DNA of 64,000 nucleotides from Candidatus Hydrogenedentota bacterium (GTDB lineage Bacteria > Hydrogenedentota > Hydrogenedentia > Hydrogenedentales > JAEUWI01), in the NCBI GenBank assembly GCA_016791475.1, contig JAEUWI010000044.1, positions 1-64,000 on the forward strand, in the 5' to 3' direction. Under the pieces are notes generated by a model. That model searched no databases, was not told the DNA's origin, and was given only the letters and a program-made list of their open reading frames with translations. Below are positions 44,298 to 59,235 of the stretch, piece by piece; the stretch's first letter is position 1, and every line of letters starts with the position of its first letter. The position numbers and the translations under genes were made by a program.

Positions 44298-45290
44298 TCA
44301 CGGGAAATCGCTGCCCGGCCACGGCACGCTCTGGTAGAAGCCACTGTCGATTCCCTCTTCCCCCGGCGCGAAGATATGGTTCGCGATGTGAATCGCGATA
44401 CCCGCCGCGTTCATTGGGAATTGCCCGCCCACCGGCAGGGGCGCGCTTTCAAAGACAACCGTTTCGGTCGTTTTCTCCGCGAATTTGGAATAGGCCACGT
44501 GTCCGTCCGCGAATAGCAGATTGGCACCGCCGGGAACGTGATTAAAGCTCTCGGCCGCATCGGCGATGTTGTCCAGCATCACCACGAGCCGGGATTGCGC
44601 CACGGCGGAGGCACCGGCGTTATTGATGTCGGTGATGAAGAAACGCTCGATGCCTTCGCGCAACCGAAGCGCCCGTGTATAGTTGCCGGGCAGCGGGGTT
44701 GAGAAAACCCAGTCCTCCTGCACGCGATACGAGTTTTCATAGATGCGCGCGCCGAAATCCTGGACGCTGGCGTAGAAGGCCGACGCCTGGGCCGCCGTCT
44801 GGAGCATTTCGTCGCTGAAGGCCCAGCCGAGATACGTGTAGGGATGGCCCAGGAATTCGCAGGGCTCGATCTTCCCGCTGTTTGTGAACCCCGGCGTATC
44901 GACGAAGTTATCCGAACCCACGTGGCCCGCGTCGTATGTGTTCAACGCGTCGCCATCCGCGGACATGGCGCTCGGGCAGATCAGGATATCCGGATCGTTC
45001 ATGTATTCCGGAAACACCAGTTCGCCGTCGAACACGGTGTCGAAGGACGACACCGTGCCGTCACAACGCTTTGTCTTCATGTACGGGTAGCTCTGCCCCT
45101 TGCTCTCGCTCGCATACATTTTGAAGACGAGCCCGAATTGCTTCAGGTTGTTCTGGCAGCTTGCGCGACGCGCGGCTTCCCTGGCGCGCGCCAGGGCGGG
45201 CAGCAGAACGGCCGCCAGAATGCCGATGATGGCAATCACCACCAGGAGTTCGATCAGGGTAAATCCCCGTTGGGAATGCTTTTTTTTCAT
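44298..45290 (-). CDS. Prepilin-like protein with H-X10-DG motif (copy 2)
   Basis: A 330-residue type IV pilin-like protein. MKKKHSQRG is the short basic leader, cleaved before [18 protein letters not shown], the methylated pilin helix. The globular part has Cys pairs (CQNNLKQ, CDG, ICPS, PCEFL), and the C-terminus has [17 protein letters not shown], the H-Xn-DG motif of PVC-type pseudopilins. AAGGTG precedes the start at 45290; 86 extra residues upstream are not pilin-like. It is a paralogue of the 46245-47144 product, and each follows a His-rich membrane protein gene. It is the last gene of the metal-type operon. Confidence 0.92.
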
Positions 45291-45370: not shown

Positions 45371-45970
45371 TTAAGTGAAAGCAAGACCTGTGGAACCCGC
45401 CTTCGGCGGCGGGCCGCGAGGACTCCAGGCGCGCCGATGGGCGCGTTGCTTCACCGGGGTGCATGCATAGAACACACCCGCCAGGCGGGCGGGTGCAGGG
45501 AGAGGCGAAAGGGATTCTGCCGCCAGCAAAGACATGGCCGCGGCGCAATAGTAATTTTCCGGCGCCCTTTCCCGGTCCGGCCCGCGATGATGATTGCCGC
45601 GCTCATCACCGGACGGACGGGATGACTGATTGCCGCGCGCTGGGGCGGGATGGGCGTGTCCCCCGGAAGAACCGTGGGTGTGAACGTGCTCCCAATCGGC
45701 CGGGCGGGTGCGCACCGCGATGCGAATTGGGTAGTTGGTGCGGTCCGCGCGGTCCCCCGAAAGGTGCTGATGGATAACCCCGCCCGATGCATGGGTGTGG
45801 GTTGCGCCGCCGTGAGTGTGGGGCGTGTAGACCCCCGGAAAACCTGCCACGAGGCGCAGCCCGAGGAGGGCCAGCATGAGAAAAGCCACAGGAAGATTTC
45901 GGCCGCCGGGCGATCCGCGCCTGCGGCCAGGTTCTGCGATACGAAAACTGGACCCGCGATCGAAAGTCAA
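45371..45970 (-). CDS. Histidine-rich membrane protein (copy 2)
   Basis: A protein of up to 199 residues with one hydrophobic helix (about 27-45, [19 protein letters not shown]) followed by [20 protein letters not shown] and further HxH clusters (HQH, HVHTHG, HAHP). About 14 histidines in 100 residues point to binding of Zn, Ni or Cu outside the membrane. It resembles the 47214-47669 product in order (helix, PGV, HxH, THA.GG, HxH). The annotated start is TTG 45970 with no good ribosome binding site; a GTG just before the helix is possible. It lies 80 bases before its partner pilin gene. Confidence 0.68.
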
Positions 45971-46244: not shown

Positions 46245-47144
46245 CTACACGCCGTTGAAGGGCCGGTTGTAGCGACCAAAGGTCCGGGCGCTGTCGACGC
46301 TCATGGGAAATTCCTCATGAGGATATTTCATGAAATCGACATGGCCGTCCATGTAGAGAACGTTGCCACCTCCAGGAATGTGGCTGAAGTCGGCCGGGTT
46401 CGTGGTGACGTGGTCCCACATGACCGCCACGTCGCTTTGGGCCCTGGCTGTGGCGCCCGCATTGTTTATGTCTGTAATGAGGAATCGCTCGATACCTTCG
46501 CGCAGTCGGTACAGCACGTTTCCGCCGTTCGCCTGGGTGCCGGCGTAGGCGCCGCTCACGGTGAAATCACGATCGCTCTGGGCGCCGGACGAGGCCACAT
46601 TGGCGCGGGCCAATTCTCCCCAGGGCGTGCTGGTGTCGAACTGGCCCTCCGAGAAGCGACCTCCGGTGTCGGTGCCGACCGTGCCCGTGAGTGGCCCAAC
46701 AATGTTCACATCTTTCAGAATCAACCAACCGATGTAGTTGTAGGGTTCTTTGAGAAACTCGCAGGGATCGACTCGGCCATTGGCATTGGCGTCATAACGC
46801 TCCACCGCGCTTTTGTGTTTTCCCCAGGAGGGACACATCACGATTTCGGCGTCGGTAAGATATTCGGGCATGAGGAGGGTACCGTCGAAGATCATGGTGT
46901 CGCTCAACGTGGCGCCGTCGCAATTGTAGGTCTTGCGCCGCGGCAGCTTCTCTCCATCGGACTCGTTGGCGTACATTTTGAAAATGACGCCCAGTTGTTT
47001 CAAATTGTTCTGGCAGGAGGCTCTTCGGGCGGCCTCCCGTGCGCGCGCCAATGCCGGAAGCAAGATGGCCGCGAGTATGCCAATGATGGCTATCACCACC
47101 AGCAGCTCGATCAGGGTAAAACCCCGTCGTGGTGCTTCATTCAT
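46245..47144 (-). CDS. Prepilin-like protein with H-X10-DG motif (copy 1)
   Basis: A 299-residue pseudopilin. MNEAPRRG is the leader and [18 protein letters not shown] the pilin helix. [19 protein letters not shown] is shared almost word for word with the 44298-45290 product, as are [17 protein letters not shown] and PCEFL; the end has [18 protein letters not shown] prepilin peptidase elsewhere must process it. GGAG precedes the start at 47144. It follows a His-rich membrane protein gene by 69 bases, forming the first copy of the module. Pseudopilins of this type are usually secretion- or surface-related; why one sits with metal genes is not known. Confidence 0.92.
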
Positions 47145-47213: not shown

Positions 47214-47669
47214 CTACACGAGTTCTGTCCTTTCCGGTTGAGGTGGAGCCCGTGCCTGGAGGTCCTCCACCCCATCTTGCGACTCGGGCACCCGCACCCA
47301 CAGGGGATGAGGCCACCCGGCCGCTTGTTCCATCGGTACCGTCTGCGAAGCGTCCGCATCTTCTACAGCCGCACTGTTGGGCGAGTAGTAGCCCGCGGCG
47401 ACTGGGAAGTGTCCGTCCGGCTGCGGACCGTCACCCGATTGATCCCCGTGTTCGTGGGGCAGCCCACCACCGGCGTGGGTGTGGAAGCGCCCATCGGTAC
47501 CATGCCAATGCAGCACCGGCACGCCCGGCACGGCGCTCAGCAGCCGAATCACTACGGCCGCCACCATGACAGGCAAGGCCCATGAGACCGCAGCGCAATA
47601 CCTGGCTCCCGAGGGGCGGCAACCGATGGTGCGGCCACCCGAGCTCCGGACTTTCCGTTTCACGCGCAT
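47214..47669 (-). CDS. Histidine-rich membrane protein (copy 1)
   Basis: A 151-residue protein with one membrane helix (about 27-48) followed by VPGVPVLHWHGTDGRFHTHAG and PHEHG. The order matches the product of 45371-45970, so they are paralogues. The His pairs suggest metal binding on the outer side of the membrane. The C-terminal half is polar and not recognised. It starts 13 bases after the TPR gene, in the same operon. Its ribosome binding site is weak (GAG), so the exact start is open. Confidence 0.72.
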   Translation of the reverse strand: MRVKRKVRSSGGRTIGCRPSGARYCAAVSWALPVMVAAVVIRLLSAVPGVPVLHWHGTDGRFHTHAGGGLPHEHGDQSGDGPQPDGHFPVAAGYYSPNSAAVEDADASQTVPMEQAAGWPHPLWVRVPESQDGVEDLQARAPPQPERTELV

Positions 47670-47682
47670 GCCGCAGCTCGCG

Positions 47683-48687
47683 CTAACTGACCGGTTCGGC
47701 GGTTTCGCCGTTCTTCAGGCGCTCCGCGACGCGGCGCTGCGAGCGCAGGAGATTGTGCCGGGAGTACTCAAGACCTTCATCGCAGACGGCCATGGCCTTG
47801 TCATATTCACCCAGCTCGGTGAGGGCGCGCGCCAGGAAGAGATAGGTTTCGCCGTGGACCTGGTCCTGAAACTCATCGAAAACCTCGCGCTTGTCGCGCA
47901 TGGCGAGTTTGAGCTTCAGCGCGTCCCGTGCGCCCTCGGTCAGTACTTCGACCGCGACGCGGTAGGCCTCGGTGGCGTTGCTGGGGTGAAACCGCTTCAG
48001 ATCTTCCGGAATTTCGATTTCCTTTCCCCGGTTCTCCTCGTGGATGAGCAACTCAAGACGGTCGGCATACTCAAAGAAGAGGCGACCCAGCGCGGCCTTG
48101 ACTTCGAAACTGTTGGGGTTCGCTTTCAAACCGGCCACGAGCAAATCCTTCGCCTCGGCGGGATCACCGGCGAAGTCGGTGAGGTAGAAGGCGCCCAGGG
48201 TGTAGAGGCGCTCGAGCCGCGGATTGAGCTTGACGGCCAATTGGTACCACGGAATGATTTCTTTCGGGTCGTCGTGGACGTGCCCTTCCTGATAGCAGGT
48301 CACGTTGCGATGAATTTCGCCGAGCAGGCCGCGCCAGTCCCGATTTTTGTCCAGAACCATGTTCACACCTTCGGTGTGGCCCATGCCCACGGCGGTTCCG
48401 GTGGCGTCCTGCCGCATGAAGCCTTCTTCCTCCTCGCCTTTGGTGGGCATGCGCTGGACCATGCCGACGTGGAGGTATTCCATGCTCTTCAGCCACATCA
48501 GGTCGCCCACGGACATCTGGAGCTGGCCCATGAGGGACAGGGCGATAGACTCTTTGGCCGCTTCGATTTCACTGGGCTGGTAGGTGGCGTCGGAGACCAC
48601 CACGGCGGCGGATAGCCGTCCCGGCATGGCGCCCGCGACGAGGGCGATGGCGACGAGGCCCAGAACCACCAGGGTATCTTTTTTCAT
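47683..48687 (-). CDS. Exported TPR-repeat protein of the metal-type operon
   Basis: A 334-residue protein with a signal peptide or anchor (1-28), then helical repeats (about 35-320) that look like TPRs, for example YLFLARALTELGEYDKAMAVCDEG. A His-containing stretch CYQEGHVHDDP lies near residue 130. It starts 12 bases after the ABC permease gene and should work in the envelope beside the transporter, perhaps as a scaffold. No enzyme motif is seen. Confidence 0.78.
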   Translation of the reverse strand: MKKDTLVVLGLVAIALVAGAMPGRLSAAVVVSDATYQPSEIEAAKESIALSLMGQLQMSVGDLMWLKSMEYLHVGMVQRMPTKGEEEEGFMRQDATGTAVGMGHTEGVNMVLDKNRDWRGLLGEIHRNVTCYQEGHVHDDPKEIIPWYQLAVKLNPRLERLYTLGAFYLTDFAGDPAEAKDLLVAGLKANPNSFEVKAALGRLFFEYADRLELLIHEENRGKEIEIPEDLKRFHPSNATEAYRVAVEVLTEGARDALKLKLAMRDKREVFDEFQDQVHGETYLFLARALTELGEYDKAMAVCDEGLEYSRHNLLRSQRRVAERLKNGETAEPVS

Positions 48688-48699
48688 CGGAAAAACTCC

Positions 48700-49467
48700 T
48701 TAGAGATCGACACGGTGGAAGCGGCGAACGCCCACGGCGATGAACACCGACGCGTAAACCAGGGCGTAGAGCGTCAGCGCCGCGAGCACCCAGAAGGGGG
48801 TGGGCAGGTAACCGTGGACCTCGCGCTTGGTGAGATCGAAGAGCTCGAGATGGGGCAGGACCCAGTAGAGGACTTCCATCAGCGTGCGCCCCCATCCTTC
48901 CAGGTCGGTGCGGACCGTGGTGAGGGTATTGGCGAAGGTCTGCATGGCCAGGGCCAGGAGCATGGACACGGTAACGTTGCCGCTGTGGGTCAGAAAGACC
49001 GACAGGCACAGGGTGAGTCCGGCGATGATCCACATGGCGAGGATGCGCAGGTAGACGGCCTGGAAGAAGACCGCCGATACGGGGACGCCGAGAATCTTGA
49101 AGAGCAGGAAGAGCTCGGCCGAGAAGAGCACGACCACGGCGGAGGCCATGGCGCAGACGCCCAGGTATTTGCCGAGAAAGACCTGCAGCCGGGAAACGGG
49201 CTTGGCCAGGAGGGGATAGAGGGTCCGGTTTTGTATTTCGTTGGGGAGCTGGCGGGCGGCGGTGACCACACAGATGAGTACCGCAAGCAGCCCGGTGGTG
49301 GTGAAGCCCACGTCCTTCACGAATTTCCCGAGCCCTTCGGTGCCGAAACGGCTGAAGAGCCCCGCGCCGAATACGATGAGCGCGGCGAGAATAAGGACGA
49401 CGTAGGGATCTTTGCGCCGAAAGGAATCGATGATGGTGACTTGGGCGATGCCCAGAATTTTATCCAT
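48700..49467 (-). CDS. ABC transporter permease (ABC-2/NosY-like)
   Basis: A 255-residue membrane protein with about six helices. LPNEIQNRTLYPLLAKPVSR is the cytoplasmic signature of the ABC-2 type NosY/YhaP permeases that pair with an ATPase encoded next to them. NosDFY delivers copper or sulfur for nitrous oxide reductase, and other ABC-2 systems export drugs, polysaccharides or lipids. The start at 49467 has GGAAAG upstream; a longer frame to 49524 is not hydrophobic. The ATPase gene ends 57 bases upstream. Confidence 0.9.
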   Translation of the reverse strand: MDKILGIAQVTIIDSFRRKDPYVVLILAALIVFGAGLFSRFGTEGLGKFVKDVGFTTTGLLAVLICVVTAARQLPNEIQNRTLYPLLAKPVSRLQVFLGKYLGVCAMASAVVVLFSAELFLLFKILGVPVSAVFFQAVYLRILAMWIIAGLTLCLSVFLTHSGNVTVSMLLALAMQTFANTLTTVRTDLEGWGRTLMEVLYWVLPHLELFDLTKREVHGYLPTPFWVLAALTLYALVYASVFIAVGVRRFHRVDL

Positions 49468-49524: not shown

Positions 49525-50454
49525 TCAACTGACTTTGTGACCAATGCGCTGGACGAAGAAGTCTTCCAGGGAGCCGGGCTCCTCATAGGAGGATTTCGCC
49601 TCCACATTGAGTTCCCTGAGCAACTGGTCGATGGATTCCCGCGCCTCCACGCTGTCCGCGGAGAAGGTGGTCTGGCCGTTGCTCACGGCGTGGATATAGA
49701 CGCCCGGCGGCAGCACCGGCGGCGAGAGCAGGCCGTCCACTTTCACAATATGGCGCCGGATGGCGTTCGACATGGCCGCAAGGTGATCTTCCGCCAGCAC
49801 CTTGCCCTCGTCGATCAGGATCACCCGATCGCAGAGCATGGTGACCTCGGAGAGCTCGTGGGACGAGAAGAACACCGTCTTCCCCTTCGCCTTGAAGTCC
49901 ATGAGGATGCGGCGAACGTCGTAGCGCGCCACGGGATCGAGCCCGGAAGTGACCTCGTCCAGGATCAGCAGGTCGGGTTCGCCCATGATGGCCTGGGCGA
50001 TGCCCACGCGCTGGAGCATGCCCTTGGAGAAGCCGCGCACCGGCTCGCGATCGCGTCCCGTGAGCTTCACCTTCGCGAGCAACTCGTCGATCATGGCCTC
50101 GCGTTGTGGCTTTGGTATCTCCCGCAGTTTCGCAAACATGCGGAGGGTTTCCCGCGCGGTCAGAAAGGGATAGTACAGCGCGACTTCCGGCAGGAAGCCC
50201 ACCTGGCGCCGACCATCCATGTGACCCGCGGGCAGGCCCATGACTTTCACGGTGCCTTTGGTGGGCTTCCTGAAGCCCATCAGCACTTTGATCGCGGTGG
50301 ACTTTCCCGCGCCGTTGGGACCGATGAAACCCACGACCTCGCCGCGCTTCACGGAGAGATTGAGTCCGTCGACGGCGCGGATGAGCTTCCCGCTGTCGGT
50401 CGTGTACTCGACCATGAGATCCCGGATTTCGATAACATTCTCGTTGCTGATCAT
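49525..50454 (-). CDS. ABC transporter ATP-binding protein (NosF-like)
   Basis: A 309-residue ATPase with Walker A GPNGAGKST, a Q-loop region around FLPEVALYYP, a modified signature FSKGM (in place of LSGGQ), Walker B LLILDEVTSGLDP and switch His in SSHE. The C-terminal 80 residues are the extension usual in ABC-2 exporters. The ATG at 50454 overlaps the stop of the upstream gene (ATGA), which rejects the longer frame to 50541. It energises the permease encoded by the next gene. Confidence 0.94.
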   Translation of the reverse strand: MISNENVIEIRDLMVEYTTDSGKLIRAVDGLNLSVKRGEVVGFIGPNGAGKSTAIKVLMGFRKPTKGTVKVMGLPAGHMDGRRQVGFLPEVALYYPFLTARETLRMFAKLREIPKPQREAMIDELLAKVKLTGRDREPVRGFSKGMLQRVGIAQAIMGEPDLLILDEVTSGLDPVARYDVRRILMDFKAKGKTVFFSSHELSEVTMLCDRVILIDEGKVLAEDHLAAMSNAIRRHIVKVDGLLSPPVLPPGVYIHAVSNGQTTFSADSVEARESIDQLLRELNVEAKSSYEEPGSLEDFFVQRIGHKVS

Positions 50455-51194
50455 TGCGCTTCCATTCCGTCCGGCTGAATTTCCGTAGCTTCTTCCTGTT
50501 TCAATTTGCGCGCTTCCTTCCGGGCCTGCCGCTCGTCCCACATGCGATCCAATTGTTTCTCCCTTATCGTGGGGGTATGGGGGACGGCTTCACCTTCCGA
50601 AGACGCCGACACCGTCGATGCCGCGCCTTGCTCGACGGACTGGAGCGCCGGCTCGTCGTGGTCGTGCCCATCGTGTAATCCGCCGCCCTCATAGGGCCGG
50701 CCCTCCAGGTGCGCGCGGAGCTTCTCCACGTCAAACTCGATGCCCAGGGCATCGTCAAAAACGCGCTCCTCGATGCCCATGCCTTTCTCGAGGTAGGTTT
50801 CGAAGGCCCGGATGTGGTGCTCTTTCGCGGAGCACCCGGCACTGTCCCCCAGCTCCCACTCGTTGCCATCGTGCTTGTAGTAGTACTCGATGCCCTTGAA
50901 GGTCTTGCAATCCTTGTCGCCCTTCTCGCGGATGTAGACGTGCACCACGCCATAGGAAGGGCCAAAGAGTTCGTAGGGGCGCTCGGTGTCCACAATGGCC
51001 ACATACTCGAAGTCTTCCCGCTTCACCTGCGGTGACTCCGTGTTGAACCATTCGTCCACGTGCCTGGATGCGAGCTCCCGCAGGCGAGCCTGCATGGAGC
51101 GATTTTCAAACTTGGCGTAGGCGACCCAGCATACAAAGAGGAAGAGGACGGTAAAAACAACATAGATGTCGCGGCGACGGATGATGATTTCCAT
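50451..51194 (-). CDS. Membrane-anchored protein with a His/Asp cluster
   Basis: A 247-residue protein with a single N-terminal helix (about 11-28) after MEIIIRRRD and an extracytoplasmic domain with VDTERPYELFGPSYGVVHVY and one Cys pair (DCK and GCS). Near residue 180 it has GLHDGHDHDEP, a probable metal-binding cluster. The end is charged and coiled-coil-like. GGAGA precedes the ATG at 51194. It is the second gene of the operon, coupled by ATGA to the ABC ATPase. The family is unknown to me. Confidence 0.75.
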   Translation of the reverse strand: MEIIIRRRDIYVVFTVLFLFVCWVAYAKFENRSMQARLRELASRHVDEWFNTESPQVKREDFEYVAIVDTERPYELFGPSYGVVHVYIREKGDKDCKTFKGIEYYYKHDGNEWELGDSAGCSAKEHHIRAFETYLEKGMGIEERVFDDALGIEFDVEKLRAHLEGRPYEGGGLHDGHDHDEPALQSVEQGAASTVSASSEGEAVPHTPTIREKQLDRMWDERQARKEARKLKQEEATEIQPDGMEAQ

Positions 51195-51304: not shown

Positions 51305-51697
51305 TCAGGCCCCGGTTACGGGGAAATCCTCCTGCGGAGGACCTCGCTGAAATTCGTGCCCCGCCGGGACACCGTGGAGGGTTCCGGGGCTGCCTGGCGC
51401 CCCGGTCGGCCCGGTCAGTTCGGGCGCTCTGGAAGAGATCGCGGGCAGGATACCGACGATTCGGGTCGCGCCCTGGCAGATAAGGCAGGCGTCTTCCCCG
51501 TGACGGTGCTCCCCGTGCCCTTCGTGGGGCGTGAGGAACGTTGCGCGCCCGCCGCAATCCAGGTGCCCATGGGCGACAAGCGCCGCGTTATGGGTAGCCT
51601 GGTGGAGGGGGACGGCGAGGTTCATGGCAAAAAGCAGGACGGCCAACGCCGCGGCGCTGAAATTCCATCCTGTCCTGCTGAATGCGCTGTTGACCAC
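51305..51697 (-). CDS. His/Cys-rich membrane protein (DUF2946-like), first gene of the metal-type operon
   Basis: A 130-residue protein with a hydrophobic helix (12-32) followed by LHQATHN, HGHLDCGG and HEGHGEHRHGEDACLICQ. The HxxC/CxxC ending recalls DUF2946 proteins found near copper and zinc genes, and the cluster can hold several metal ions. The start is GTG 51697, with GGAG 7 bases upstream. The open frame continues to 51748, but that part overlaps the promoter, so it cannot be translated from this transcript. A Fur/Zur-like operator lies at 51728-51751. Confidence 0.75.
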   Translation of the reverse strand: MVNSAFSRTGWNFSAAALAVLLFAMNLAVPLHQATHNAALVAHGHLDCGGRATFLTPHEGHGEHRHGEDACLICQGATRIVGILPAISSRAPELTGPTGAPGSPGTLHGVPAGHEFQRGPPQEDFPVTGA

Positions 51698-51727
51698 TGA
51701 TCTGCTCCAATGCCCCCGCTGATTTCG

Positions 51728-51759
51728 GTAATGATAAGGCAGTATCATTACTTTGTCAA
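51728..51759 (-). promoter_or_regulatory. Sigma70-type promoter with Fur/Zur-like operator for the metal-type operon
   Basis: The minus strand has -35 TTGACA (51759-51754), a 17-base spacer and -10 TATCAT (51736-51731). A perfect inverted repeat, GTAATGATA (51751-51743), six bases, TATCATTAC (51736-51728), covers the spacer and the -10 box. A repressor bound here would block RNA polymerase. The half-site resembles the AATGATAA words of Fur and Zur boxes. The transcript would start near 51724. Confidence 0.82.
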
Positions 51760-51812: not shown

Positions 51813-52172
51813 TTAGAAGAGAGAAAAGAACCCGCGAATCGCGAGGAAGACGAAAAGTATCAGGCCGGCGCAACCGAAGAGACAGCAGCCGGAGCCATCC
51901 CCGCCCCGGTCGATGCGGATGGTACGTCCCCACATGTTGCCCGACGGCGGACGCTGGTATTCCGGGTTGAAGAAGGGATCGTCTTCGTAGTTCGGTTCTT
52001 TTTCGGGCTCCGGGTCATTCAGGGCCACGGCGCGCACGTCTATCACCTCGGCGGAAACGGGTACGGGCACCCGGACGGCAGCGCCGCACGACGGGCAGTT
52101 GACGCCATTTCCGGCGAGGTCTGTCGGCGCTTCCAGCACGGTATTGCAATGGGGGCAACGAACTTCTATCAC
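51813..52172 (-). CDS. Zinc-ribbon protein with a C-terminal membrane helix
   Basis: A 119-residue protein. The N-terminus has RCPHCNTVLEAPTDLAGNGVNCPSCG, compressed here as CxxC-18-CxxC, a zinc ribbon of the type found in many PVC proteins. The middle is acidic (PEPEKEPNYEDDPFF) and the end is a glycine-rich membrane helix (GCCLFGCAGLILFVFLAI). The start is GTG 52172; the ORF to 52265 is not protein-like. It lies behind the metal-type operon promoter on the same strand, 54 bases upstream of it. The function is unknown. Confidence 0.7.
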   Translation of the reverse strand: MIEVRCPHCNTVLEAPTDLAGNGVNCPSCGAAVRVPVPVSAEVIDVRAVALNDPEPEKEPNYEDDPFFNPEYQRPPSGNMWGRTIRIDRGGDGSGCCLFGCAGLILFVFLAIRGFFSLF

Positions 52173-52303
52173 AAGTAAACTCTCTATACAGTAGGGACGG
52201 ACACGGTCCCGAGACCAACTACTCAACACTTGGCAATTGTTGAGCCCTGAGTCCAGTACACTCAACTCTTCACGCTTATTCTATACAAAGCCCCGCGTGC
52301 GCG

Positions 52304-52891
52304 TCAGGTTGCGGCGAGGGACTTCAAGCGCGCGATGGCATAGGCCGCACTCGGGCACGCGGGATGTGCCGCGGCGCGGGTAAGGTCGAAGCCATGACGC
52401 TGGATAAACTTCTCGGCGAACTTGGGCTTGCTTGCCCCCGGGCCTCGACCTGTATGCTCAACGAGCACGGACTTCAGTCTTTCCCATGCATTCGCATAAA
52501 CCTCGGGCATCGCTTCGAAGAATTCGTTATTGCCCATGTAACTTCGCATGGCTTCGGTATCTCCAAGAAACCACGATTCCACCGATGTTCTGGCGATCAG
52601 CACGAGATCCACACCATCTGCGAAAATCAATTGCTTTCTGCCGGTGATGCAAGGTACGACCGCGCTTGGATCGAGATCGGCAAGGATAACGACCTTGTCG
52701 GGCCGCGCCTCCTTGACGAAGGCTGGAAATTGTAAAGATAGTCGGTGTGACCTCAAATTGTCGATGCTCGACACGTTCAGGACAGGATCAGCCACCTCCA
52801 GACCGAGGTCTCCGTGCATCCAGTTGCGAAAGCAACTGCTTTCGACCAAGAGTTTCTCTGTGTCGCCTTCGACTATGAAACCCACCCTCAC
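52304..52891 (-). CDS. TOPRIM-like protein (DUF4276 type) of an ATPase pair
   Basis: A 195-residue protein with FIVEGDTEKLLVE at the N-terminus (the acidic TOPRIM motif, Glu in a GxxE-like position), then VVILADLDP (the DxD motif) and a helical end. This pattern is seen in RloB and in DUF4276 partners of AAA ATPases, which act as nucleases. GTG 52891 overlaps the stop of the ATPase gene (GTGA), so the pair is coupled. TTG 52894 is an alternative start. Together they look like an anti-phage or conflict module. Confidence 0.75.
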   Translation of the reverse strand: MRVGFIVEGDTEKLLVESSCFRNWMHGDLGLEVADPVLNVSSIDNLRSHRLSLQFPAFVKEARPDKVVILADLDPSAVVPCITGRKQLIFADGVDLVLIARTSVESWFLGDTEAMRSYMGNNEFFEAMPEVYANAWERLKSVLVEHTGRGPGASKPKFAEKFIQRHGFDLTRAAAHPACPSAAYAIARLKSLAAT

Positions 52892-54045
52892 CAAGGCAGT
52901 CCCGCACCCAGAAGATTGGACAGCCAGGCCTCATCCATGCCGAACGGGCGAATATCCTCATCGGTCAGATTGCCATCGGAAGCATGTTTCATTATCGTGG
53001 CGCCCTCCTTTCGGTCTACAAGCCACAACTCTTCCAGCTTCGTGTGCCTCACGACGGACTCGGAATGGGTCGTGATCCAAATCGCGTGCTCCGGCGTCGC
53101 GGTTTCCCGCATCAACTCGATCAACTCGCCTATTGCTTTTGGATGCAATCCCCGCTCCGGCTCCTCGATGAGTGTTAGGCTGAGAGGGGCGGGTTTGTCG
53201 AGAATAGCGACAAGAAGAGACAGTGCAAACATGGTACCTTGGGATACAAAGCCTGCGGGAAACGCGCGCGCCGCATGCTTTTCCTTGAACGTGATCTCAG
53301 ATCTTTGATCAAGATGCCTGCGCTCGATATTTACCGATTCGACCGTCGGCACTAAGAACTCCATCCATTCGCGAATGTCTTCCCGCACATTGGGATCTTT
53401 CCCCATGCGGGACAGTACCGCCGCCAGATTGCGACCGCTCACGTCGAGGAATGTGTCATCGCCATCTGGCTCAAAGGCCCCCGTCGCCGCGCCAGGATCG
53501 ATTCTGTACAGACGGATATTTCGTGCGAGTTCACCGACGGCAATACCCTCAAACATTGATAAGTTTGAATAGTCGTCGCGGATTCTTGGACTAATTGGAT
53601 GCCCCGTAATTGTGGTGTATTCAAGCCCCGACTTTCCACGAGGTCGGTTGTACGTCTTGCCGGATTGTGTCAGACCCTCCTCCAACTGGGGCCCAGATTC
53701 TCCGCCATGGATTGTCATGGAATAACTTGTTGGTACAAACACCCCGGCTTGCGCCTCGGAGCTATCTAAAAGGACACCGTCCAGCTCAATGCCAAAATTA
53801 GTTTCATCAGACGACTTAAGCGCGGTCGCATTTCGGACAAATTCAGAGCCCCCCGAAGAACGAATCGCTTCTACCGCGCCACTGACCACCACCCTCTGAA
53901 AAAACGCCAATGCATCAAAAAAATTGCTCTTACCCGTCCCGTTGGCCCCGGCAAATACTGAAAAGGGGCCAACATCGTGCAATTCGAGCGTATCGATGCT
54001 CTTGAAGTTTGAAATCTTGAGTCGCTTGATGAACGGCTTACTCAT
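52888..54045 (-). CDS. AAA-family ATPase (OLD/RloA-like) paired with a TOPRIM protein
   Basis: A 385-residue ABC/SMC-like ATPase: KRLKISNFKSIDTLELHDVGP at the start, Walker A GANGTGKS (33-40), a signature-like VSQGT region, Walker B TLIEEPERGLHP and TTHSESVV. The two-gene arrangement with a TOPRIM protein resembles split OLD nucleases and PARIS-like AAA-TOPRIM systems that block phage. The start at 54045 has AGGTG 6 bases upstream; the frame to 54216 is not conserved-looking. The pair sits among housekeeping genes with no other defence gene nearby. Confidence 0.85.
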   Translation of the reverse strand: MSKPFIKRLKISNFKSIDTLELHDVGPFSVFAGANGTGKSNFFDALAFFQRVVVSGAVEAIRSSGGSEFVRNATALKSSDETNFGIELDGVLLDSSEAQAGVFVPTSYSMTIHGGESGPQLEEGLTQSGKTYNRPRGKSGLEYTTITGHPISPRIRDDYSNLSMFEGIAVGELARNIRLYRIDPGAATGAFEPDGDDTFLDVSGRNLAAVLSRMGKDPNVREDIREWMEFLVPTVESVNIERRHLDQRSEITFKEKHAARAFPAGFVSQGTMFALSLLVAILDKPAPLSLTLIEEPERGLHPKAIGELIELMRETATPEHAIWITTHSESVVRHTKLEELWLVDRKEGATIMKHASDGNLTDEDIRPFGMDEAWLSNLLGAGLPW

Positions 54046-54170
54046 GGTGGCACCTGTGGGTCGATTCCCATGGAAAAAACGCGCGCGGCTGTCTCGCCGT
54101 TGGCACCAGCATAGCACATTCGCGCGGGGCTTCGACCCTGCCTTTCCGCGCCATCCGTGGTAGGCCAAGA

Positions 54171-54200
54171 GGGCGGACCCCGGCGCACCCGGGTCCGCCC
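54171..54200 (-). terminator. Hairpin after the VWA lipoprotein gene, possible terminator
   Basis: GGGCGGACCC (54171-54180) pairs perfectly with GGGTCCGCCC (54191-54200). On the minus strand it is followed only by TCTTGG, so it is a weak terminator. It lies between the VWA gene (54226-55944) and the ATPase gene. Confidence 0.45.
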
Positions 54201-54225
54201 TTGCAATTCCATTCATGCCATCGGC

Positions 54226-58732: not shown

Positions 58733-58761
58733 CGCGCATTTTTTGATGCTATACTGTGGGT

Positions 58762-59235
58762 ATGAAGCCCACAGTGTACATCGAAACGAGTGTAATTAGT
58801 TACTTGACCAGTCGCCCGAGCAGGGACCTGATTGCCGCCGCGCGCCAGGAAGTGACCCAGCGCTGGTGGGTAGATTCCGCCCAAGCCTTTGAATTGGTCA
58901 CTTCGGAAATTGTCACACTGGAAGCATCGAGAGGGGATCTGAACGCAGCGCAGCAGCGGATTGCGGCACTTTCCGGGTGCAAGCTCCTGGATGTGAGCGA
59001 AGCGGCTCGATTATTGGCGCGGGCCATCCTCGATGACGGTATCCTCCCGACAAACTCTGGGGCAGATGCCCTCCACATTGCGGTCGCTTCGATCCATCGC
59101 GCTGAATTCTTGCTTACCTGGAACTACCGGCATATCGCAAACGCAACGCTCCGAAAGCGCATGAATTCCATTATCGAACGCTCTGGTTACGAATGCCCGG
59201 TTATCTGTAGTCCCGAAGAACTTATGGAGCATTAA
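58762..59235 (+). CDS. PIN-domain ribonuclease toxin (VapC-like)
   Basis: A 157-residue PIN-fold protein. Acidic residues of the active site are seen in VYIETSVISYL (Glu instead of the usual Asp), LVTSEIVTLEA and the DALHIAVA Asp, with TWNYRHIAN at the end. VapC-type proteins cut tRNA or rRNA. ATG 58762 is preferred to GTG 58756; no clear ribosome binding site is seen. The gene after it, 3 bases away, is a small acidic protein that should be the antitoxin, so the order is toxin-first, opposite to classical VapBC. Confidence 0.85.
   Translation: MKPTVYIETSVISYLTSRPSRDLIAAARQEVTQRWWVDSAQAFELVTSEIVTLEASRGDLNAAQQRIAALSGCKLLDVSEAARLLARAILDDGILPTNSGADALHIAVASIHRAEFLLTWNYRHIANATLRKRMNSIIERSGYECPVICSPEELMEH

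Follow-up and report, generated by a model that had tools for sequence, protein, structure and literature searches.

What controls the run of minus-strand genes that opens near position 51,700 of this contig, and what might their products do? The window analysed here is the first 64,000 nucleotides of a contig from the MAG of an uncultured Candidatus Hydrogenedentota bacterium (7.7 Mb, 529 contigs). Comparison of its sequence with related genomes leads us to propose, with a probability of roughly 0.85, that the locus is a Zur-controlled zinc-starvation operon, most likely a zinc-handling module of the envelope.

A perfect dyad overlaps the promoter core

The original prediction described a minus-strand TTGACA, a 17-base spacer and TATCAT, with a perfect dyad laid across them, and this arrangement was confirmed at 51728-51759 (CTTGACA-AAGTAATGATACTGCCT-TATCAT-TACCG, spacer 17 nt). 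The dyad, GTAATGATA-N6-TATCATTAC, is 24 bp long with both 9-bp arms perfect and AGGCAG as its centre, and when up to three mismatches are allowed it is the sole match in the window (chance expectation 0.01). It covers both the spacer and the -10 hexamer, placing the operator over the promoter core in a repressing position, as is typical of Zur operators. The promoter is the best sigma-70-like site between 44000 and 52400, agreeing at 11 of 12 positions. Gene 1 is read from a GTG at 51697, preceded at 7 nt by GGAG; as this start leaves a short 5′ UTR, initiation is not placed at the ATG within the operator (51748). A zinc-ribbon ORF upstream (51813-52265) forms a separate unit.

A second copy lies between a Fur-family gene and znuACB

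A genome-wide pattern search at up to three mismatches found two places, the window site and C10:145316. The second copy (TTAATGATACGTTGTTATCATTAC, one mismatch) is situated between a Fur-family gene (L003:9917-10294, minus strand) and the genes for ZnuA, ZnuC and ZnuB (L003:10384-12876, plus strand), the Pfam matches at this locus including ZnuA (1e-58), ABC_tran and ABC-3. The search had been proposed to look for another dyad near a metal gene, and it returned one. The gap between zur and znuACB is the classic position of a Zur site.

The genome encodes three Fur-family proteins. Of the other two, one is encoded on C2 next to a gene for ferritin, with a 7-1-7 box, CTATTAATAATCATTATTAATTAG, upstream of the regulator gene; the other is encoded on C23 next to a Dps-like gene. 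Such a 7-1-7 box with a link to iron genes is the mark of a Fur (iron) operator, and the spacing of the window site differs from it. The C10 regulator matches PF01475 above cut-off, and the Zur structures 3mwm and 2o03 are among its best matches, beside Fur. Its nearest NCBIfam models are PerR/Fur, scored far below their cut-offs, and it reaches no equivalog cut-off; as family models do not separate it from PerR and Fur, the name Zur rests on genomic context. That context, with the dyad at znuACB and at zinc genes across relatives and the remaining Fur-family genes beside ferritin and Dps, argues that the site is a box for Zur and not for Fur, and supports narrowing the predicted metal-repressor site to Zur.

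The motif recurs ahead of zinc genes in related genomes

Across 64 genomes of the order, the dyad at up to one mismatch gave 48 matches versus 4 for the control. Four low-GC genomes of a single family, which carry no ortholog of this Zur, showed no enrichment (15 versus 20 control matches). About 20 relatives carry the motif in front of zur and/or znuA. Most close orthologs of zur have a site a short distance upstream, and in other families a site precedes znuA (sites in G001, G003, G004, G013, G015, G022, G027 and G034, and further in G041, G043, G046, G047, G049, G055 and G065). The motif also precedes MacB/FtsX genes (G022, G034, G027) and MerC genes (G028, G035). On the strength of this recurrence ahead of zur/znuA, MacB/FtsX and MerC across genomes, we conclude that this motif is the phylum's Zur box. 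A match scoring 30.0 was seen in another lineage (L017; G083:C38), between a similar Fur-family gene and the gene for a very His-rich protein; this type of box may thus extend past Hydrogenedentota.

Orthologous operons were found in G001, in G003, where the contig ends inside the operon, and in G048. The promoters of the first two have TTGACA, 17 nt and TATCGT or TATCAT; the dyad keeps its register relative to them, and a small His/Cys gene comes next. The G001 operon includes a P1B heavy-metal ATPase, and its gene 2 product has a long His tail. In G048 (L110 / L114) the operon, gene 1 included, has a promoter region without a Zur dyad, while the zur gene of that genome has one. The G001 ATPase gene (L108:9926-12247) stands where the window has its 274-nt gap, between genes 7 and 8.

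A candidate Zur regulon

A Zur matrix was built from 12 sites close to zur orthologs, with the window site left out, and the regulon of this genome was sought by pattern searches and matrix scoring of fetched loci. Among these, the sites scored 34.4 (C5), 28.2 (C10, a member of the training set), 27.9 (window), 27.0 (C20), 26.3 (C71) and 26.0 bits (C82); a score of at least 26 is expected 0.007 times per genome given the dinucleotide make-up of the window and 0.07 times under an AT-rich intergenic model. Non-training sites precede COG0523 (ZigA-like), MacB/FtsX/DUF3299 and MerC genes. The C20 site is followed by a COG0523 GTPase gene (NCBIfam ZigA, 565 bits against a cut-off of 600) and then by a paralog of window gene 2, the C71 site by genes for a MacB-like ATPase, for an FtsX permease whose loop is His-rich and for a DUF3299 protein, and the C82 site by a gene for a MerC protein. 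Together with the C10 copy, motifs ahead of zur/znuA, MerC, COG0523 and Zrg-like ABC genes bear out the earlier suggestion of a Fur/Zur-type metal repressor site, and the predicted regulation of the operon by Zur is strongly supported at the sequence level.

With a shorter 14-position pattern, up to two mismatches gave 7 matches in this genome versus 3 with the reversed pattern; at three mismatches it was rejected as too noisy for listing the regulon (43 versus 34 for the control). Weak candidates on C56, C26, C11, C8, C2 and C3 were dropped, having no convincing zinc gene adjoining. For Hydrogenedentota this would seem to be the first zinc regulon, and the first Zur box, on record: no paper on a Zur regulon in this phylum was found in the literature searched, with subscription papers mostly outside it.

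Two further features of these loci were observed. The highest-scoring site (L105:5232-5255; G000:C5:145231-145254) precedes the gene for a lipoprotein related to vanadium haloperoxidase (DUF6851/VCPO). On C82, masked bases are followed by nine-base repeats that form PKR/RPI repeats in a predicted ORF (L103:6569-7020).

The operon encodes His-rich exported proteins

Nine genes extend from 51697 to 44298 with mostly short gaps (Table 1) and are predicted to be co-transcribed. Gene 8 is preceded by a 274-nt gap, so genes 8 and 9 may be a separate unit, possibly with a second promoter there. The expectation of a multi-gene operon of no recognised kind, with His/Cys-rich envelope proteins, holds: the products of genes 1, 6 and 8 are exported and His-rich.

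Table 1. Promoter elements and genes of the predicted operon (window coordinates).
Feature	Position	Strand	Description
Zur box / operator	51728..51751	.	24-bp dyad GTAATGATA-N6-TATCATTAC; pattern, matrix score, conserved in G001 and G003
-35 hexamer	51754..51759	-	TTGACA; same sequence and offset in G001 and G003
-10 hexamer	51731..51736	-	TATCAT; right half-site of dyad
Gene 1	51305..51697	-	small exported His/Cys protein, CLIC motif, C-terminal RGPP, DUF2946-like
Gene 2	50451..51194	-	single-pass envelope protein, no assigned family, His-rich stretch; paralog after Zur-site COG0523 gene (C20)
Gene 3	49525..50454	-	ABC ATPase; NosF is best bacterial match of known structure
Gene 4	48700..49467	-	ABC-2 permease, PF12679
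Gene 5	47683..48687	-	exported TPR protein, conserved N-terminal region
Gene 6	47214..47669	-	exported His-rich protein, ends RAPP
Gene 7	46245..47144	-	DUF1559 / H-X9-DG pilin-like protein
Gene 8	45371..45970	-	exported His-rich protein, ends RGPP; start uncertain, ATG at 45877
Gene 9	44298..45290	-	DUF1559 pilin-like protein, C-terminal extension

The gene 1 product aligns to the last position of the DUF2946 model (PF11162) with 19.9 bits, below the Pfam gathering score of 23.7; its orthologs score 15.2 and 13.9, the one in G001 not being listed. For gene 2, an AlphaFold model of mean pLDDT 68 gave no significant match in a Foldseek search. The gene 3 ATPase also resembles ABCA lipid transporters, and a sequence search found no solved relative of the gene 4 permease. 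A scan of genome contigs with gene 5 returned two loci only, both in Hydrogenedentota, and its model (pLDDT 58) is confident only within part of the C-terminal half. Genes 7 and 9 score above cut-off for SBP_bac_10 and have the N-methylation motif, as expected of DUF1559 / type IV pilin-like proteins; gene 7 has no His tail.

Genes for R[GA]PP proteins are paired with those for His-tailed DUF1559 proteins

All 12 small exported proteins considered (genes 1, 6 and 8 and nine from related loci) carry R[GA]PP near the C-terminus, a motif present in the last 30 residues of 4 of 291 background ORFs; the DUF2946 model ends similarly. A Zur box immediately precedes a pair of genes, for an R[GA]PP protein and then a DUF1559 pilin, in other families as well (G035, G006, G034 and G004); three of these pilins, for which the C-terminus was read, have ..LHE.. 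or a His-rich extension. Among the DUF1559 loci analysed across the phylum, an R[GA]PP gene lies just upstream in 45 of 52 rows of His-tailed pilins versus 3 of 27 untailed rows (with one gene entered twice), where the tail was called by a simple regular expression and the upstream pattern was R[GAPS]PP. Zur matrix scores of at least 17 occur within 700 nt upstream of 13 of 47 tailed and 0 of 23 untailed pilins (reversed matrix, 0 of 47; shuffles, 0.65 on average); because the DUF1559 loci were partly chosen by likeness to a Zur-linked pilin, such fractions are biased and it is the contrast with controls that counts. Many tailed pilins have no recognisable Zur box.

DUF1559 has 70 matches in this genome. 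One locus (L142:6201-8705; G000:C36) holds two DUF1559 pilin genes with a small His/Cys RGPP protein gene between them, and a weak Zur-like site (15.8) precedes the latter.

While the Zur box itself belongs to a known kind, the operon seems to be new, as do the Zur-linked R[GA]PP-DUF1559 pairs; the literature searched, with most subscription papers outside it, held no paper on Zur control of pilin-like proteins or on DUF1559 with zinc. We tentatively suggest, at somewhat less than even odds, that Hydrogenedentota possess an extracellular or periplasmic zinc-catching system of Zur-controlled, His-tailed DUF1559 pilins, each with an exported, His-rich R[GA]PP partner, of which the window operon would be the largest form, equipped with a dedicated NosFY-like ABC machine.

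Comparison with known systems

Zur operators and regulons have been described in E. coli, Caulobacter, Vibrio and Pseudomonas (reviewed in PMC6103462 and PMC10393844). The present system resembles them in having a Fur-family regulator gene adjoining znuABC, a palindrome over the -10 or spacer, and COG0523, ZnuABC and Zrg/PA4063-66-like ABC genes. The box itself differs, its 24 bp containing AATGATA half-sites six bases apart, whereas PMC6103462 lists 9-1-9, 7-1-7 and 23-bp boxes. Caulobacter znuGHI, an ABC-2 transporter repressed by Zur through an operator over the -10 (PMC4176598), shares with the window a Zur-controlled ABC-2 type ATPase and permease and the -10-overlapping operator; here, however, a DUF2946-like gene, gene 2, a TPR gene and pilin-like genes are present and the operon has no TonB receptor.

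Vibrio ZrgABCDE (PMC9817125) and Pseudomonas PA4063-PA4066 (PMC8561739) are Zur-controlled ABC systems with His-rich periplasmic proteins. In this genome the C71 operon corresponds to the MacB/FtsX/DUF3299 part of Vibrio Zrg, its ABC part being as in PA4063-66, whereas the window operon has ABC-2 instead of MacB/FtsX and neither DUF3299 nor DUF2796. A likeness to the copper-maturation ABC system NosDFY is seen in gene 3, closest to NosF among bacterial ATPases of known structure, and in the PF12679 match of the permease, but no operon protein has a NosD-like family match and control by Zur speaks for zinc; the parallel between the two whole systems is offered only as a lead. Among protein families, genes 7 and 9 pass the DUF1559 (PF07596) and N-methylation cut-offs, and gene 1, although similar to DUF2946 (PF11162) up to its C-terminal end, falls below the cut-off and is named DUF2946-like only.

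Alternative explanations

Inverted repeats rich in AT do occur in promoters, and the dyad might be a chance palindrome of this type, the more so as the 14-position pattern at three mismatches barely exceeds its control. Such an origin is extremely improbable in view of a perfect 18-position match expected 0.01 times per window, a held-out matrix score of 27.9 and a layout kept in two sister species. It is also improbable that the box serves another Fur-family protein, Fur or PerR, with the operon answering to iron, manganese or peroxide. Half-sites are alike across the Fur family, two more of its genes are present in the genome and sequence models cannot tell the C10 regulator from PerR/Fur. 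Against this, the two additional genes sit beside ferritin and Dps, and a 7-1-7 box (TAATAATCATTATTA) belongs to the one by ferritin. The occurrence of the N6 dyad, moreover, follows that of zur and znuA from family to family, and the dyad is not enriched in the four genomes, all of one family, that lack this Zur.

A further alternative accepts Zur control, with the products forming a surface or biofilm response to zinc shortage, by pilin-like fibres or export of other substrates, and not serving zinc acquisition. DUF1559 proteins are abundant in this genome and have been reported as stress-responsive in Rhodopirellula (PMC2754498), ABC-2 permeases often export lipids or peptides, and the gene 3 ATPase resembles ABCA lipid transporters as well. 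Yet the Zur-linked subgroup stands out by its His-rich tails and partners, the G001 operon contains a P1B metal ATPase, and the gene 2 paralog follows a COG0523 metallochaperone gene. We consider a surface response unlikely, though a reading that deserves some weight.

A model for zinc-dependent control

We favour the zinc-handling envelope module, and these comparisons suggest the following model. When zinc is sufficient, Zn-Zur would bind the 24-bp box, in which the -10 hexamer forms the right half, and exclude RNA polymerase from a strong sigma-70-type promoter. When zinc drops, Zur would leave and the operon from 51697 to 44298 would be transcribed, along with a predicted co-induced set of zur/znuACB, the COG0523 metallochaperone, the Zrg-like ABC system and the MerC protein. 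Most of the products are exported or lie in the membrane, and they contain many histidines, which fits zinc binding in the periplasm or on fibres. The exported His-rich R[GA]PP and DUF1559 pilin-like proteins may bind zinc on the outer side of the inner membrane or on pilin-like fibres, and may pass it to ZnuABC or another importer. The NosFY-like ABC-2 machine, with the anchored gene 2 product and the TPR protein, could power assembly, export or metal transfer.

The model would place under zinc control DUF2946-like proteins and members of DUF1559, a large pilin-like family with no assigned role. Should these proteins indeed bind zinc, metal would be captured in a new way, through pilin-like proteins, and what some members of DUF1559 do would become directly testable.

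Other features of the window

Two loci outside the operon were also observed. An ORF at 58756-59235 resembles, by eye, a PIN-domain toxin (VapC-like), for which no partner was identified. At 52304-54216, two adjacent minus-strand genes encode what we take to be a DUF4276-type protein and an AAA ATPase, a pairing that occurs in putative defence loci.
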